DNA of 64,000 nt from an uncultured Pelagibacteraceae bacterium (GTDB lineage: Bacteria > Pseudomonadota > Alphaproteobacteria > Pelagibacterales > Pelagibacteraceae). The stretch covers positions 62,001 through 126,000 of the forward strand of contig CACFGT010000001.1 of the NCBI GenBank assembly GCA_902565935.1, written 5' to 3'. Made by a program: the position numbers and the translations under genes. Shown here one piece after another: positions 35,577 to 44,187 of the stretch (position 1 is the stretch's first letter; the number at the start of each line of letters is the position of its first letter). Below the pieces are notes generated by a model, which had not been told where the DNA came from, ran no database searches, and saw only the letters and a list, made by a program, of their open reading frames with translations.

Positions 35577-36458
35577 ATGATTTCATTTAATAAATATTAC
35601 AATCAATTCAACATCCTTTCTCTGTCATTAGTTGTAATTTCATTATTTTTTTTAATCTTTAAAGGTCTTAATTTTGGAATTGATTTTAAAGGTGGAACTT
35701 TAATAGAACTTAGATCAACTGATGAAAAAATAAATGTTTCATCATTGAGAGACAACCTTAAACAAATGGATCTTGGTGATGTTTCTGTAAAAAATTTTGG
35801 TAATGAAACTGATTTTTTAATCAAATTTGAAAATGATAATAATAAGAATATCATTGAAGAAATAAAAGCAAATTTAGATAAATCATTTGGAAATACATTT
35901 AATTTTAGAAGAGTAGAAAATGTTGGTCCTAAAGTTAGTGCAGAATTATTAAGGTCAGGTGTTATAGCAATTTCAGTAGCTTTAGCTTTAATGCTTATCT
36001 ATATTTGGATAAGATTTGAATGGCAATTTAGTCTTGGTGCAATACTTGCATTATTTCATGATGTTATAGTTACTTTAGGTTTATTTTCATTGCTCAATTT
36101 AGAAATAAATCTGTCTATTGTTGCAGCAGTTTTAACAATAGTAGGATATTCCATGAATGATACTGTTGTCATTTTTGACAGAGTCAGGGAAAATTTAAGA
36201 AAATATTCAGATATCAAGATTTATGAATTAACAAATATTTCAATAAATGAAACATTATCAAGAACATTAATTACATCAATAACTACATTATTGGCCTTAT
36301 TTTCAATATTTTTCTTCGGTGGTGAAATATTAAAAGGATTTTCATTAGCCATGATATTTGGTGTTATTTTTGGTACTTATTCATCTATCTATATTGCTAA
36401 TACAGTATTAGTCAGATTGAATGTGTCACAAAAAACTATTCTTAAAGAAGATAAGTAA
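35577..36458 (+). CDS. secF: Protein translocase subunit SecF
   Basis: GIDFKGGTLIELRS, VAAVLTIVGYSMNDTVVIFDRVRE. Confidence 0.95.
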   Translation: MISFNKYYNQFNILSLSLVVISLFFLIFKGLNFGIDFKGGTLIELRSTDEKINVSSLRDNLKQMDLGDVSVKNFGNETDFLIKFENDNNKNIIEEIKANLDKSFGNTFNFRRVENVGPKVSAELLRSGVIAISVALALMLIYIWIRFEWQFSLGAILALFHDVIVTLGLFSLLNLEINLSIVAAVLTIVGYSMNDTVVIFDRVRENLRKYSDIKIYELTNISINETLSRTLITSITTLLALFSIFFFGGEILKGFSLAMIFGVIFGTYSSIYIANTVLVRLNVSQKTILKEDK

Positions 36459-36461
36459 TCT

Positions 36462-37364
36462 ATGCTTATATATATAAAGCTTTTTGAGGTCTTATTTCCT
36501 GTTTTTTTTGTTGTGGGTATTGGTTATTACTTAGGAAAAAAAAATCCAAAAATTGATACTACTTTCATAACTAATTTTGCTGCTAATGTGGGCACACCTG
36601 CAATGATAATTTATGCATTAAATCCAGTTAATATATCTTTTAATATTTTTATTAATTATTTTTGGTATTACGCATTGGCAATTGGTGGATTTATGATTAC
36701 TGGAGTAATTATATTATATCTTTTAAAAACCAAAGATATCATAAGAGAATTACCACCGTTAACAATGCCAAATACTGGAAATATGGGATTACCAATATGT
36801 TTATTTGCATACGGCTCTCAAGGTCTTGGTGTTTCAGCAGCTATATCTGCTTTAATCATTTTATGCCATTTCACTCTTGGTGTTTTTTTAGCTGACAGAA
36901 AATTTAGTTTAAATGTAATATTAAAAAGCCCTCCATTTTATGCAATAATAGTTGCTGTAATTTTACTTTATTACGATTTAGAGCTTCCTGGATTTGTTGA
37001 AAATACCACTTTCTTACTTATGTACGCAACAATATTTCTTATTTTGATGTCTTTAGGAATTGCATTAACAAGACTAAAAGTTTTTTCTCTAAATAAAGCT
37101 ATATTCTCCTCTATTGGACGAGTAATTGTTGGACCCATAATTGGATATCTATTAATTTTATATTTTGATTTAGAAGGTTTTGCTGCTGGTGTTTTATTAA
37201 TTCAATGTTCAATGCCTAGTGCTGTTTTAAATTACTTGGTGGCTTCAATATATTCACCTAAAAAAATTGTTGATAGTGTTGCTAGTACTATAGTTGTATC
37301 AACATTAATGTCATTTATAACCATTCCAATCGTTGTATTCTTAGCTTTAAAATACTTCAATTAA
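36462..37364 (+). CDS. AEC (auxin efflux carrier) family transporter
   Basis: 10-TM profile; NTGNMGLPICLFAYG motif. Confidence 0.85.
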   Translation: MLIYIKLFEVLFPVFFVVGIGYYLGKKNPKIDTTFITNFAANVGTPAMIIYALNPVNISFNIFINYFWYYALAIGGFMITGVIILYLLKTKDIIRELPPLTMPNTGNMGLPICLFAYGSQGLGVSAAISALIILCHFTLGVFLADRKFSLNVILKSPPFYAIIVAVILLYYDLELPGFVENTTFLLMYATIFLILMSLGIALTRLKVFSLNKAIFSSIGRVIVGPIIGYLLILYFDLEGFAAGVLLIQCSMPSAVLNYLVASIYSPKKIVDSVASTIVVSTLMSFITIPIVVFLALKYFN

Positions 37365-37384
37365 TCTATATCCTTCTTTACTGA

Positions 37385-38236
37385 ATGAAGGCTATAACTT
37401 TTAATTTATTGGCATGGGTAATGCTTCCTATAATGGATGGATTTGCAAAATATCTAAGCGCAGATCTTCCAGTATTACAAATTACATGGGCAAGATATTT
37501 TTTTACCGTGGCATTTACTTTTCCAGTTATGTTTTTCTTTTTTCGGAAAAATCTTGTATGGACAGATAAACCAAAATTACAATTCATTAGAGGCTTAATT
37601 CTTTTAACAGCTAATATTTGTTTTTTTTATGCAATTTCAGTTATTTCTTTAGCAAAAGCATTAACTTTAGCTTTTGTTGCTCCTTTAATTGTTACAGCCT
37701 TTTCCCCAATTTTCTTAGGAGAGAGGGTGGGATTTAGAAGATGGTCAGCGGTAATTATAGGGTTCATAGGTTCTTTAGTAGTTATAAGGCCAGGTTTTGT
37801 AGAAATTAATTTAGCAAGTATAGCTGCTCTTGGAACAGGTGTGATGTATGGGTTTTATTTAATTATTACTCGAAAACTTAGTACTTCAGACAATCCTTTA
37901 TTAACTTTATTGTTAACTGGTGTAGTAGGGGCCATAATTATATCTACTATAATGCCATTTGTGTGGGTGAAGCCTAGCTTAAATCAGTGGTCTATGATGG
38001 CTGCTATAGGTATATTTGCCTGTATTGGGCATTTATTTATAATATTGTCTCTCAAATATGCTGATGCGTCTAAATTAGCTCCATTTAGCTACTTTGAGAT
38101 CATTACAAACATTATTATTGGTTATTATTTCTTTAGTGATTTCCCAGATAATTGGACTTTTTTAGGCTTATTTATTATTGTATTAAGTGGTATCTACATC
38201 TCAAGAAGAGAGAACTTAGTTAAAAAAGTTAAATAA
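37385..38236 (+). CDS. EamA/DMT-family transporter
   Basis: Two EamA repeats; FLGERVGFRRWSAVIIGFIGSLVVIRPG. Confidence 0.88.
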   Translation: MKAITFNLLAWVMLPIMDGFAKYLSADLPVLQITWARYFFTVAFTFPVMFFFFRKNLVWTDKPKLQFIRGLILLTANICFFYAISVISLAKALTLAFVAPLIVTAFSPIFLGERVGFRRWSAVIIGFIGSLVVIRPGFVEINLASIAALGTGVMYGFYLIITRKLSTSDNPLLTLLLTGVVGAIIISTIMPFVWVKPSLNQWSMMAAIGIFACIGHLFIILSLKYADASKLAPFSYFEIITNIIIGYYFFSDFPDNWTFLGLFIIVLSGIYISRRENLVKKVK

Positions 38237-38686
38237 TAGGTAATATTTATTTACTATTATTTAAAGTATTACATTAAGTAATATATATAAACAATTGTAT
38301 TTATTATATTTTATTAATAATCAAATTATATCATATTTTTAATTATAAAAACTTAATTCGACTTAATATGCTCTATAAAAGTTAAAAATATTGCAAATAA
38401 TGGAAAACACCAAATAATCTATATAAATAGGGGTTTTTTAAACGATTATGGCTAGGAATTTACCTTAAAATGGGGGAGGCCAAAAGCATTGATATAGTTG
38501 AATAGTAGAGTGATGCGCTAATCGAATATACCATTTAAACGCCCATAGAGGGGTCTATTTTAGGTATAGTCACATATATGGTACAACTGAAGCGTGAATT
38601 TAATTATTATAGAAAAAAATACATAAAAATGGTAAAAAGTGTTGATTTTACTAACTTTTTTAACTTTAAGAAGCCTCAAAATAGGG

Positions 38687-38962
38687 CTAAATGGCTACTT
38701 TTTCAGACCTAAGTAATTTGAGTTTTTGCTTAATTCCACCTCTTCCAGAATAGCCTCCAAGGGTCCCATCAGACCTAATTACTCTGTGACAAGGTATTTT
38801 TGGGGCATATGGGTTTTTAGCACATGCATTAGCCACAGCACGGGCTGATTTCGGGCTTTTTATGCTTATTGCAACTTGTTTATAGGTCTTAACTTGACCT
38901 TTGGGTATACTTTTCAAGTATTTCCAGACTTTTATTTGAAATTTTGTACCTTTGAGCGTCAT
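38687..38962 (-). CDS. ogt: Short methylated-DNA-protein-cysteine methyltransferase (MGMT domain only)
   Basis: GTKFQIKVWKYLKSIPKGQVKTYKQVA, active-site PCHRVI, GGYSGRGGIKQKLKLL. Confidence 0.9.
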   Translation of the reverse strand: MTLKGTKFQIKVWKYLKSIPKGQVKTYKQVAISIKSPKSARAVANACAKNPYAPKIPCHRVIRSDGTLGGYSGRGGIKQKLKLLRSEKVAI

Positions 38963-38983
38963 TTAAGAAGAAAACCCCTGTTT

Positions 38984-39151
38984 CCTTGCACTTTTGAAGG
39001 TGCAAAGAACAGTTGTTTTTGGCACGTCGTTGATGCGCTACCGCCATGCCTCCCGCTCCACATGTTCAGCGATGCTTTGTAGAGCTTTCTGCCCCCTGGA
39101 ATTGTACCTCTCGGCTTTTCTCCAATTGGCCAGTTAAGAGTTGCCTCTTAA
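38984..39151 (-). ncRNA. Candidate structured RNA / 5' leader of ogt
   Basis: Local GC about 52% (39001-39120) in AT-rich surroundings; several hairpins, two of whose non-Watson-Crick pairs are G-U only on the minus strand; GCAA tetraloop on minus strand. Confidence 0.4.
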
Positions 39152-39249
39152 TTCATATTTAAATTAACAAAGTTAAATTAAATAGGGTATCACTAAATAG
39201 TTGTTTTTTTAAAATCTAGTATTTTTATGTGAATTACGGTGATAACTTC

Positions 39250-39423
39250 CTATTTAGTAAGCAAAATCAGGTAACTTACAAAAAATATGATTGCCATTAT
39301 AGACAAAAAAATTGTGTTGAAGCTTTTTCCAGTGTTTCGATATTGAATAATAGTTAAAATAATAAAACCAATTGAACTAATTAAAAACCATACTGCAGGA
39401 ATTTCTCCATCAATCGAACCCAT
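39250..39423 (-). CDS. 57-aa small membrane protein (not in supplied ORF track)
   Basis: MGSIDGEIPAVWFLISSIGFIILTIIQYRNTGKSFNTIFLSIMAIIFFVSYLILLTK*; two predicted TM segments. Confidence 0.55.
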   Translation of the reverse strand: MGSIDGEIPAVWFLISSIGFIILTIIQYRNTGKSFNTIFLSIMAIIFFVSYLILLTK

Positions 39424-39440
39424 AAATTTAATTTAAACTA

Positions 39441-39468
39441 TTGACATCAAAAATCACTTGATATATTA
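39441..39468 (+). promoter_or_regulatory. Candidate promoter of the integrase gene
   Basis: TTGACA, 17 nt, TATTAC. Confidence 0.5.
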
Positions 39469-39499
39469 CTAGTGATAATTAATTGTTATCAATAGTAAT
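39465..39499. repeat. Dif-like inverted repeat abutting the integrase start codon
   Basis: ATTACTAGTGATAA-TTAATTG-TTATCAATAGTAAT; arms match 13/14. Confidence 0.7.
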
Positions 39500-39502
39500 T
39501 GT

Positions 39503-40456
39503 ATGAATGAACTGACAACAGACCTAAAATCGCTTCATGAGGCAACTTTAAATAACCTCAAAAGCTCAAAAGCAAATAATACTTTAAGAGCGTATAAGTC
39601 AGACTTTAAAGATTTCGGAGCTTTTTGTGCAAAACATGGTTTTAATTCTTTGCCATCAGAGCCAAAAATTGTATCTCTTTACCTAACCCATCTTTCTAAA
39701 AATTCTAAAATCAGTACTTTAAGAAGACGATTAGTATCAATAAGTATGGTGCATAAACTGAAAGGTCATTATTTAGATACAAAACATCCGATTATTGTCG
39801 AGAATTTAATGGGAATTAAAAGGGTAAAAGGGAGCATACAAAAAGGCAAAAAACCTATATTAATCAATCATTTAAAATCAATAATTAATGTAATAGATGA
39901 GCAAAAAATTGAGAGCATTAAGAAATTTAGAGATAAGTCGATCATCTTAATAGGCTTTGGAGGCGGTTTCAGAAGGACTGAACTTACTTCAATTGATTAT
40001 GAAGATTTAGAATTTGTACCTGAAGGACTTAAAATCATAATCAAGAGATCTAAAACTGATCAATTTGGTGAAGGAATGATAAAAGGACTCCCCTACTTTA
40101 CCAATGAAAAATATTGCCCTGTATATAATCTCAAAAAATGGTTAGAGATTTCAAAAATCAAATCTGGATCTATTTTTAGAAGATTTTTAAAAGGCTCATC
40201 TTTGACTGATAAAAGATTAACAGATCAATCTGTCGTTTTATTAATGAAAGAATATTTAAATTTAGCAGGTATAGAAAATAAGAATTTTGCAGGTCATAGT
40301 TTAAGATCAGGTTTTGCTACAGTAGCAGCCGAGTCTGGTGCAGATGAACGAAGTATAATGGCTATGACAGGACATAAAACTACACAGATGGTAAGAAGGT
40401 ATATTAGAGAAGCAAATATATTTAAAAATAATGCTTTAAATAAAATTAAAATTTAA
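39503..40456 (+). CDS. Tyrosine recombinase / phage-type integrase
   Basis: SAM-like N domain; catalytic R (GFRRTEL), HSLR, GH (MTGHKTTQM), RRYIREA. Confidence 0.93.
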   Translation: MNELTTDLKSLHEATLNNLKSSKANNTLRAYKSDFKDFGAFCAKHGFNSLPSEPKIVSLYLTHLSKNSKISTLRRRLVSISMVHKLKGHYLDTKHPIIVENLMGIKRVKGSIQKGKKPILINHLKSIINVIDEQKIESIKKFRDKSIILIGFGGGFRRTELTSIDYEDLEFVPEGLKIIIKRSKTDQFGEGMIKGLPYFTNEKYCPVYNLKKWLEISKIKSGSIFRRFLKGSSLTDKRLTDQSVVLLMKEYLNLAGIENKNFAGHSLRSGFATVAAESGADERSIMAMTGHKTTQMVRRYIREANIFKNNALNKIKI

Positions 40457-41151
40457 AAAAATTTAGAAAAAAATTTTTTTATTTTATCAGAAAATTTTTC
40501 TTTAATATTATTTGGATAAAAATAATTTATACTTTCTCCCTTATGAATAAAAGCAATATTTTGATGAAAATAAATGGATTTAATTAATCCATCAGATTCA
40601 TTTTTTTTAAAAAAAGGACGATTGTTTTTTTCATAATTGATTGAGTCTGTTAATGATTTTAAAAAATTCATTGAAGATTCTTTTTTACTAAGATTTATCC
40701 TAGATCCACCATATCTTGGAATATAAGAAGTTTGAAGATCTTCAATTACATATAAACCATCATTATTTAAATAAGGAAAAAGATAATTAAACGAACTTAT
40801 AATATGTTTAGCCTGATGACTTCCATCATCAATAATGATGTCAAAATGTTTATATTCTGCCACTAATGTATTTAAAAATTTGTGATCAGATTGATCGCCT
40901 TGAAGTATATTTGTATCTTTTATTTCGAAATTTTTTTTATCAATATCTATCCCACAAATATTTGCTTTTGAAAAATATTCACGCCAAATTCTCAAACTGT
41001 CGCCATTATCGACTCCTATTTCAAGTATATTAATTTCTAAGTCTCTATAAGGTGTAAAATATTTATCGTATAATTGAATAAAACCAGAAATATTTTTACT
41101 TGAGGGATATTTTTTTCCAATGTCTACTAAATTCATGTTATCTTTATCCAT
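40453..41151 (-). CDS. Class I SAM-dependent methyltransferase (MycE/cephalosporin hydroxylase-like)
   Basis: NILEIGVDNGDSLRIWREYF, CGIDID, FDIIIDDGSHQAKHI. Confidence 0.8.
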   Translation of the reverse strand: MDKDNMNLVDIGKKYPSSKNISGFIQLYDKYFTPYRDLEINILEIGVDNGDSLRIWREYFSKANICGIDIDKKNFEIKDTNILQGDQSDHKFLNTLVAEYKHFDIIIDDGSHQAKHIISSFNYLFPYLNNDGLYVIEDLQTSYIPRYGGSRINLSKKESSMNFLKSLTDSINYEKNNRPFFKKNESDGLIKSIYFHQNIAFIHKGESINYFYPNNIKEKFSDKIKKFFSKFF

Positions 41152-42074
41152 TTTGTAGGCCAAAAATCTTTATTATTTATAAAAAAATCCGAAAAAAAAT
41201 TGTCGTCCGGTCTACATATAATTTTATTACTCTTTTGACAAAGCCAAGCACCCCACCAATTAAATGATGAAGGAATTGTTATATGATGGTTACATTTTGA
41301 AATTAAAAATAAATCAAGAGCTCTTTTATCAATATCTTCTATTTTTTTTGGATTATGAAAAACTTTTATTAATTTAGTATCAAATAAACTCATATCAATA
41401 TTATCTAAATCATTAGACCATAAATAAAAAATTGGATTACTTATATGTTTTTTTATGTAAAAAATAGATTTATTTATATAAGAAATTTGTTCATCTCTAA
41501 ATTTTATTGACTTTTCAACATTTTTTTTATTATAAGTGTTATTACCCTCTATAAATCTATTTTGTCTTAAACATACCGAAATAGAGTTTTTTTGATTTAC
41601 TTTAAGATAAAAAGGGTTTTTTTTATATTTTTCAAAATCTTTGAAATCAAATTCTCTTAAAATTTCTTCTTTGTAATGGGTAAAATACATTTCTGTCTCA
41701 AAATATCCCTCAAAAAATGTCTTGTCTGCTAAACTAATTAAATCAAAATTATTATTATATTTTGTTTTTTTGTATTCATCTTTTTCCTCTATATAGAAGT
41801 GTTTTTTTTGTGAAAAATAATCAATTTTTTTAAAAATTTTTCTTTTAATATATCCCAATAATCCTAAAAACTTATCCTCATCATTAGCTACAGCTGAGGA
41901 TATCTTAAAATTATTCAATCCATATTTACTAATATTTTTTTTGGTTTTAAATGATGTTTCATCATCTATAAGCAGTACTCTATCTAATTTTTTTGCAATA
42001 GCGTAGGTCGATGCATATATAAAAAGTTGATTTCCAATTTCATTAGAGATACGCGAAACAATCTTTTTTTTCAT
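41133..42074 (-). CDS. Glycosyltransferase family 11 (alpha-1,2-fucosyltransferase-like)
   Basis: EIGNQLFIYASTYAIAKKL; SVCLRQNRF; HHITIPSSFNWWGAWL. Confidence 0.85.
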   Translation of the reverse strand: MKKKIVSRISNEIGNQLFIYASTYAIAKKLDRVLLIDDETSFKTKKNISKYGLNNFKISSAVANDEDKFLGLLGYIKRKIFKKIDYFSQKKHFYIEEKDEYKKTKYNNNFDLISLADKTFFEGYFETEMYFTHYKEEILREFDFKDFEKYKKNPFYLKVNQKNSISVCLRQNRFIEGNNTYNKKNVEKSIKFRDEQISYINKSIFYIKKHISNPIFYLWSNDLDNIDMSLFDTKLIKVFHNPKKIEDIDKRALDLFLISKCNHHITIPSSFNWWGAWLCQKSNKIICRPDDNFFSDFFINNKDFWPTKWIKIT

Positions 42075-43099
42075 TTTTTTAATGAATATCTCATCTTTCT
42101 TAATGTTTTATCAAAATTTTTACTTGGTACTATAAAATCATATTTTTTATAATTAGGTTTAAATTCATAGAAGGCATTTTTATACCTCATGTAATCTTTT
42201 TTAGAGTTTATTTCACAAAGAAATAAATCCAAGACTCTATTATTATTAATTGATGCTAAATTGGTCATCATGCCATGAAAAGCAACTACAATGTATGAGT
42301 CATTTATTACATTTAATAAGTCACTTCCACTTATATTATTATAAAGATATATTTTTGAGTTATTAATTTTTTTTTCTCCATTAGAAAAATCAATAAAGTT
42401 AAAGTCTTTTTTATATGAATCTAAATTTTCATCATTTTCTATATCTTTTGTTAATATAACGTTATCACTATAATTTAAAAACTCATTTAATAATTTTTTT
42501 AATTCATCATACCCCCATCCTAATTTCTTAAAATTTTCTAATTTCAAATGAAAATAAATATAGTTTTTCAAATTTAGAGAATTATTATAACTTGGCAAAT
42601 TTGGTAATGTGTAATCACTTTTAAAATTTAAATCTTTAGTAAGATCGTTTTGTAGTTCCATTGTTGATTTTCTCTTATAATGTGTTCCTCTATCGTTAAT
42701 TGAATATTTATAGAGATATTTTCTTAGAAAAATATTAGGTCTTTTGTAATTATTTGCTGAATTTAAACAAATAGCATAAAACTTAATTTTTCTAAAAAAA
42801 AAAGGCAAGTAAAAATAAAAATTTTTAGGTGTTAAAATATAAATTGAATATATTGAGTTAAATAATAAATCATAAAAAATCTTTATTTTTTCTTTTATTG
42901 TGAGATTATATTTAACAATTTTTACTTTAACATTTTTGAAATTGAATAAAAAATCAAAATTTTTACTTCTTTCAGATAAATAAATTAATATTTCATTTTG
43001 AATATTATGATTAATGATATTATTAATGGCTGGTAAACTTTGAACAAGATCACCCACCGCATCATTCTTAAAAATGATGATTTTTTTATTCAAATTCAT
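42071..43099 (-). CDS. GT9/heptosyltransferase-like glycosyltransferase
   Basis: IIIFKNDAVGDLVQSLPAINNI N-terminal motif. Confidence 0.72.
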   Translation of the reverse strand: MNLNKKIIIFKNDAVGDLVQSLPAINNIINHNIQNEILIYLSERSKNFDFLFNFKNVKVKIVKYNLTIKEKIKIFYDLLFNSIYSIYILTPKNFYFYLPFFFRKIKFYAICLNSANNYKRPNIFLRKYLYKYSINDRGTHYKRKSTMELQNDLTKDLNFKSDYTLPNLPSYNNSLNLKNYIYFHLKLENFKKLGWGYDELKKLLNEFLNYSDNVILTKDIENDENLDSYKKDFNFIDFSNGEKKINNSKIYLYNNISGSDLLNVINDSYIVVAFHGMMTNLASINNNRVLDLFLCEINSKKDYMRYKNAFYEFKPNYKKYDFIVPSKNFDKTLRKMRYSLKK

Positions 43100-43101
43100 T
43101 A

Positions 43102-44187
43102 TTAAAAACTATTTAGTTTTCTTATAATATATGAAACTTCTTTATTAGTTAAGAGAGGATTTATTGGAATACTTATTCCATATTTTGCTAACATTTCAGA
43201 GTTTTTAAACTTTTCTTTTCCAAATTTTTTTTTAAAAATATCTAATTGGTGAATCGCATACGGATAGTGAAATCCATATTGAATTTTATTTTTTTTTAAA
43301 AAATTTATAAATTTTTGCCTTTCTTTTACAATAATTACATACTGATGATATACAGAATATTTGGAGTGTTTTATCTTAATTATTTTTTTATTACTCAGGT
43401 GTTTATCATATTTTGAGGCAATTTTTCTCCTCGATTGGTTTAATCTTAATAAATCTTTTAATTTATAATTTAAAATTAGTGCTTGCATGGTGTCTAATCT
43501 ACTGTTCATTCCAACTTCTTCATGAATGAATTTTTTTTCAGCACCTAAATTTCTTATTTTTCTTATTTTTTTATATAGATTTTTATCATTTGTAGTAATT
43601 ATACCTGCATCTCCATATGCACCTAAGTTTTTGCCTGGGTATAAGCTGAAAGTGGATATATCAGCCAATGAACCAACTTTTTTACCTATATCGCTTTTAG
43701 CACCATGTGCTTGAGCACAATCATCAATGATAAATATTTTACTATTCTTTATTATCTTTTTTATTTCATTTATATTTACAACTGAACCATATAAATGAAC
43801 TGGCATTATTACTTTTGTTTTTTGTGTAATTTTTTTTTTTAAATCATTAATATTGATTGTTGGTGATAAATAATCTGTATCAACAAGTATAGGTTTTAAA
43901 TTAGCATTTAATACAGAAAAAGCCGTTGAACAATATGTCATTGCTGGAATAATTACTTCGGAATTTTTTTTTAAATTAAGAGATTTTAAAGCAATAGTTA
44001 AAGCATCAGTTCCATTTGCACAACCAATTGAATATTTAGAATTACAAATTAAAGCAAAATTTTTTTCAAACTTTTCTACTTCACTCCCTAAAATAAAATC
44101 ACCTTTTTTAAAAAAATTCTTTAAATCCCTTAATATCAAATTATGATATTTCTTATCTTGATTATAAATATCTAAAAATTTTATCAT
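43102..44187 (-). CDS. DegT/DnrJ/EryC1/StrS-family sugar aminotransferase
   Basis: CANGTDALTIALKSL, PAMTYCSTAFSVLNANLKPILVD, DDCAQAHGA, FSLYPGKNLGAYGDAG; start set to internal ATG. Confidence 0.93.
   Translation of the reverse strand: MIKFLDIYNQDKKYHNLILRDLKNFFKKGDFILGSEVEKFEKNFALICNSKYSIGCANGTDALTIALKSLNLKKNSEVIIPAMTYCSTAFSVLNANLKPILVDTDYLSPTININDLKKKITQKTKVIMPVHLYGSVVNINEIKKIIKNSKIFIIDDCAQAHGAKSDIGKKVGSLADISTFSLYPGKNLGAYGDAGIITTNDKNLYKKIRKIRNLGAEKKFIHEEVGMNSRLDTMQALILNYKLKDLLRLNQSRRKIASKYDKHLSNKKIIKIKHSKYSVYHQYVIIVKERQKFINFLKKNKIQYGFHYPYAIHQLDIFKKKFGKEKFKNSEMLAKYGISIPINPLLTNKEVSYIIRKLNSF

Follow-up and report, generated by a model that had tools for sequence, protein, structure and literature searches.

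A minus-strand element upstream of ogt in a Pelagibacteraceae genome is an IMES-2 RNA and very probably a self-contained RNA gene

In a 64,000-nucleotide stretch of DNA from an uncultured Pelagibacteraceae bacterium (the whole of which is called the window here), the minus strand between a 57-aa ORF and an ogt-like gene carries an RNA of the IMES-2 family, very probably as a self-contained gene whose folded product is likely separate, trans-acting and probably protein-bound. Based on cmscan, minus-strand positions 39158-39019 are IMES-2 (Rfam RF02035; 145 bits, E 1.1e-37), and the match spans the full model, positions 1-141, with a posterior of about 1.0 along its whole length. As this full-length match lies above the gathering score, a cut-off of 54.7 bits, the element belongs to the catalogued family. 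R1, a covariance model made in this analysis from diverged IMES-2 members, gave 144 bits on the window copy, and RF02035 was the sole non-tRNA Rfam match within the 64-kb window. An earlier, sequence-only reading had proposed a candidate novel ncRNA; the Rfam search bore out a structured RNA but not its novelty, the IMES-2 identity being already catalogued, and the same reading was right that the element is not a tRNA, SRP RNA, RNase P or tmRNA. What is added here is the full definition of the gene, a loop-loop contact and natural empty sites.

IMES-2 was reportedly first described, from marine metagenomes and without a function, by Weinberg et al. 2009 (Nature 462:656), and that original report is said to present the family as transcribed as abundant RNA. 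A literature search on IMES returned no paper discussing IMES-2 and nothing informative. Weinberg et al. 2009 is cited in PMC2864571. The parts of the locus are as follows.

38687-38962, minus: ogt-like gene with a methylguanine-DNA methyltransferase domain (Pfam PF01035, E 1.8e-32), a neighbour judged not to be part of the RNA
38965-38977, minus: U-rich tail of the terminator, GGGTTTTCTTCTT, ending right before the ogt ATG; T runs in homologues
38978-39012, minus: intrinsic terminator hairpin, CTGTTCTTTGCAC...GTGCAAGGAAACAG; two-sided change in all 7 modelled pairs, 94.5% paired; -16.9 kcal/mol alone
39019-39158, minus: IMES-2 RNA core, RF02035 model positions 1-141 (cmscan 145 bits, R1 144 bits)
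39021-39050, minus: P4 hairpin, GGCATGGCG/CGACGTGCC; 98.4% of cells paired, two-sided change in 6 of 8 pairs
39035-39072, minus: kissing helix, P3 loop (39072-39067) with P4 loop (39040-39035); 94.9% of cells paired in 46 homologues
39055-39085, minus: P3 hairpin, GCTCTACA/TGTGGAGC; two helix segments with 96% and 88% of cells paired, two-sided change in all 8 pairs
39089-39133, minus: P2 bulged hairpin; 98.9% of cells paired
about 39115-39106, minus: P2b, inner tetraloop hairpin of P2; 91.5% of cells paired
39134-39151, minus: P1 hairpin, TTAAGAG-GCAA-CTCTTAA, with GNRA loop; 100% of cells paired (n=46), 4 of 7 pairs change on both sides
39159-39169, minus: presumed -10 region, TGTTAATTTAA; weakly conserved
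39188-39203, minus: upstream block B, CAACTATTTAGTGATA, presumed -35 or activator region, about -44 from the RNA start
39228-39245, minus: upstream block A, TTATCACCGTAATTCACA (family consensus TTATCCaCAcaATTcACA); motif in 46 upstream regions
39250-39423, minus: 57-aa ORF, which in the empty-site alignment abuts ogt directly in relatives lacking the cassette

The GC elevation that first drew attention to the element is real: positions 39001-39120 have 52.5% GC against 27.2% in the window, only 0.06% of 120-base windows (10-base steps) are as high, and all those with at least 50% GC fall at this element. The four hairpins named in the sequence-only reading are all present on the minus strand at exact coordinates; its list missed the bulged hairpin P2 (39133-39089), however, and its fourth hairpin (39007-38984), real in itself, proved to be the inner part of the terminator hairpin (39012-38978), beyond the 3' end of IMES-2. 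Minus-strand 38960-39180 folds at -69.1 kcal/mol, whereas shuffles average -50.0 and none of 200 did as well. The argument for a minus-strand RNA was correct, as the minus strand folds with a z of -4.5 and the plus strand with a z of only -1.5.

Covariation across IMES-2 homologues is very strong. In an alignment of 46 non-redundant homologues (A1), in which 49 base pairs were scored, the stems are kept and covary, P1 to P4 included: 96.6% of pair cells form standard pairs and 39 of the 49 pairs change on both sides, whereas partners slid by 1-3 columns pair in just 34-39%; the covariation score is 0.57 against 0.22 in shuffles. P2 together with P2b contributes 11 of 13 pairs that change on both sides, and the P2b tetraloop, GAGA in the window copy, is GCAA or UUCG in relatives.

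A helix between the loops of P3 and P4 is well supported, because two-sided change is seen in 22 cells, against 4.4 in shuffles, and the helix pairs in only 5-55% when slid. Most homologues have AGCGCU in both loops, and the exchanges include AGAACU/AGUUCU (locus L042), its reverse AGUUCU/AGAACU (L041), AGUACU/AGUACU and, in genera g7 and g9, AGCACU/AGUGCU; variation on both sides is limited to 3 of the 6 pairs. Five of the six pairs form in the window copy, the sixth being a U-C mismatch. This helix is not drawn in the model as displayed by cmscan, whose printed consensus omits pseudoknots, and it therefore cannot be concluded that the authors of the family missed it. The kissing helix has few pairs, and AGCGCU, the form seen most often, can pair with itself, so the two loops may also serve in dimerisation or in some other way.

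The 3' end of the gene is marked by an intrinsic terminator, a stable hairpin followed by a U run, which lies outside the RF02035 model. At the loci inspected, about 10-20 bases 3' of IMES-2, a hairpin precedes a T-rich run; the hairpin sequence varies freely while its pairing is retained, and a run of at least four T follows it in 43 of 46 homologues, compared with 33% of control stretches. A strict-consensus terminator scan of 38600-39600 reported none, probably because the U run of the window copy is interrupted. On the 5' side, motif finding in 46 non-redundant upstream regions recovered block A (19.8 bits against 6.5 in shuffles) and block B, with the family motif CAACTAaAAAGTGATA (18.9 against 5.7), the latter at -45 to -42 in all 46, and a weaker -10-like block (6.9 against 4.1), whose median distance upstream is 10 bases. 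That the promoter is used at other sites as well was considered and rejected: in the genomes searched, block B occurs at IMES-2 and elsewhere only as isolated matches. In the window, 287 bases separate the 57-aa ORF from ogt, and since the terminator covaries and the upstream blocks are conserved, we regard promoter, RNA and terminator as one unit of ~290 bp.

Block A may also be read as two abutting DnaA-box-like 9-mers, TTATCCACA and, immediately after it, a second one, NNATTCACA. If Pelagibacteraceae have kept these as a tandem DnaA-box pair, IMES-2 transcription could be tied to the replication initiator, and the RNA would report or couple the replication state of cells that have very few regulators; we hold this to be unlikely. 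An RNA of the replication origin or terminus was rejected after a GC-skew check in complete genomes, prompted by block A, in which the position of the locus is not conserved: it lies near a skew maximum in one (G043, genus g1) and at neither extreme in another (G009, g9). With the G009 locus so placed and no extra DnaA boxes found in 20-kb stretches around the locus, a link to replication of this kind is not conserved. Within the window itself (36000-44000), plus-strand GC skew turns negative near 39-40 kb after being positive, and gene orientation switches with it, a pattern like that of a replication terminus.

The sequence-only reading had favoured a minus-strand RNA running into ogt. Under such a view the element would be a cis-regulatory leader, riboswitch or attenuator that senses something and whose terminator switches read-through into ogt, and two features of the window's genus (g1) fit it: ogt, the 3' neighbour there, is co-oriented and immediately downstream of the terminator, and the cassette interrupts what appears to be a 57-aa ORF-ogt operon in relatives. 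Outside g1, however, this RNA with its promoter and terminator precedes convergent or unrelated genes. Most of the other genera checked have a gene that we take to be mnmA on the 5' side and a convergent gene for a membrane protein on the 3' side; in the 3' position, g9 has a convergent, presumably SRAP-like gene and g7 a presumably RmuC-like gene, these three names being recognised from translated sequences and not from profile search. Because the 3' neighbour changes among genera, there is no stable cis partner, and ogt is present without IMES-2 in relatives. The conserved intrinsic terminator before the ogt start argues against a leader in its own right, and as its helix stands apart from the conserved core, no alternative pairing is evident. 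A riboswitch or attenuator for ogt is thus disfavoured and a leader role improbable, and the option that fared best among those listed by the sequence-only reading is the independent sRNA: the varying neighbours and mostly convergent downstream genes, with the terminator and promoter blocks, favour a stand-alone RNA gene.

Empty sites are found in close relatives within the window's genus. In four genomes (G180, G149, G105 and G003), the 57-aa ORF lies next to ogt and the whole cassette is absent as one block. On a tree of 107 ogt sequences, presence and absence require about five changes, a rough count since ogt is short, and starred branches force just one. Beyond the 57-aa ORF in the window lies a tyrosine recombinase gene (Pfam Phage_integrase; 39503-40456, plus), the start region of which is also found upstream of the ORF in the cassette-less relatives L188-L191. 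The DNA between the recombinase start and the ORF (about 39428-39502, minus) is well conserved at L188-L191 and contains the repeat-like TGATAACAATTAATTATCACTAGTAATATATCA, perhaps an operator or a recombination site.

In the family of the window, IMES-2 is present as a single copy in 258 of 397 genomes, spread over 12 of 14 genera; of 140 good genomes, 76 have a match and 64 do not. A sample of the order gave 139 carriers in 297 genomes, the matches listed all being inside this family, and an R1 search of 289 genomes sampled across the class found only two, both in this family; no IMES-2 outside Pelagibacteraceae was thus found among the matches listed for these two samples. IMES-2 is dispensable in some lineages, given the many good genomes without it. 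Hidden diverged copies in these genomes were considered and rejected, as the more sensitive R1 gave weak matches only, the best (G063, 23 bits) at an apparent rpoA-rplQ coding junction. Viral carriage was likewise rejected: 11 exact core-pattern matches were found in viral contigs, and the sequences inspected were not IMES-2.

The clean empty site in close relatives, the neighbourhoods that differ between genera, the patchy presence within the genus (with its five or so changes on the ogt tree) and the recombinase next door in the window would all suit a mobile or selfish element that encodes the RNA and integrates as a cassette. Each carrier genome has a single copy, however, and never more, and the empty-site alignment showed no noticeable terminal repeats. 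The neighbour is mnmA (as we take it to be) in most other genera checked and ogt within g1, and this constancy indicates vertical inheritance with losses; we consider mobility very unlikely.

A diverged housekeeping RNA (6S, SRP, tmRNA or RNase P), or a replacement for one, is just as hard to credit. The 6S model (RF00013) had no match in 27 SAR11 genomes, namely the window's whole genome and 26 relatives, with controls such as Caulobacter positive, which may leave room for an RNA in a 6S-like niche; SRP RNA, too, had no match in the window's draft genome. On the other hand, complete genomes without IMES-2 likewise have no 6S match, and as 6S was found in neither carriers nor non-carriers, IMES-2 was not simply exchanged for it. 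Both tmRNA and RNase P were found in the window's genome, so IMES-2 is not a stand-in for either, and SRP RNA was found in three IMES-2 carriers (G043, G018 and G009). 6S RNA is a long single hairpin, and the serial hairpins of IMES-2 do not resemble it. Loss in many good genomes also sits poorly with a core housekeeping role. IMES-2 itself does not match RF00013, and on this result and the searches for tmRNA, RNase P and SRP RNA an identity with 6S or another housekeeping RNA was rejected. As to the unmatched RNAs themselves, SAR11 may have lost 6S or may have a 6S too diverged for the model; for SRP RNA, the absent match in the window's draft genome (G000), with a sub-threshold match only in G003, may reflect an assembly gap or a diverged RNA.

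We therefore return to the self-contained RNA gene. The unit of ~290 bp would be transcribed from its own promoter, with two conserved upstream sites, into a compact RNA of about 140-195 nt whose four hairpins would be locked by the P3-P4 contact; the intrinsic terminator would end this RNA just before ogt, most likely releasing it as a separate small RNA, and the folded product would act in trans, probably with protein bound. The most plausible product is a trans-acting RNA or an RNA-protein particle, and its benefit is presumably conditional, as the gene is single-copy and compact, with its own control region, kept in most lineages and lost in several. Transcription in this strain, action in trans and a protein partner are thus what we infer from the arrangement of the locus. 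SAR11 bacteria rank with the ocean's most abundant cells, and many carry this structured RNA, for which natural presence/absence pairs at the same site, mutable base pairs and a defined promoter offer experimental handles.

Among known systems, the closest is the IMES-2 motif (RF02035) itself, with which the window element shares four hairpins, a full-length 145-bit match and occurrence in marine bacteria, here SAR11/Pelagibacteraceae genomes; beyond that model, the element has a downstream terminator, conserved promoter blocks, a covarying P3-P4 loop-loop helix and empty sites. With 6S RNA (RF00013) it has in common that it is a structured bacterial RNA, independent, single-copy and about as long, but it has serial hairpins and no RF00013 match, and relatives without it do not have 6S in its place. 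Candidate structured RNAs in GC-rich intergenic regions of SAR11, a setting shared by IMES-2, were described by Meyer et al. 2009 (PMC2704228), who thought separate transcription likely for their fourth minor motif, too; the genes that they list as flanking the minor motifs include neither ogt nor mnmA, and ogt does not occur in the text, which sets those candidates apart from the element described here.
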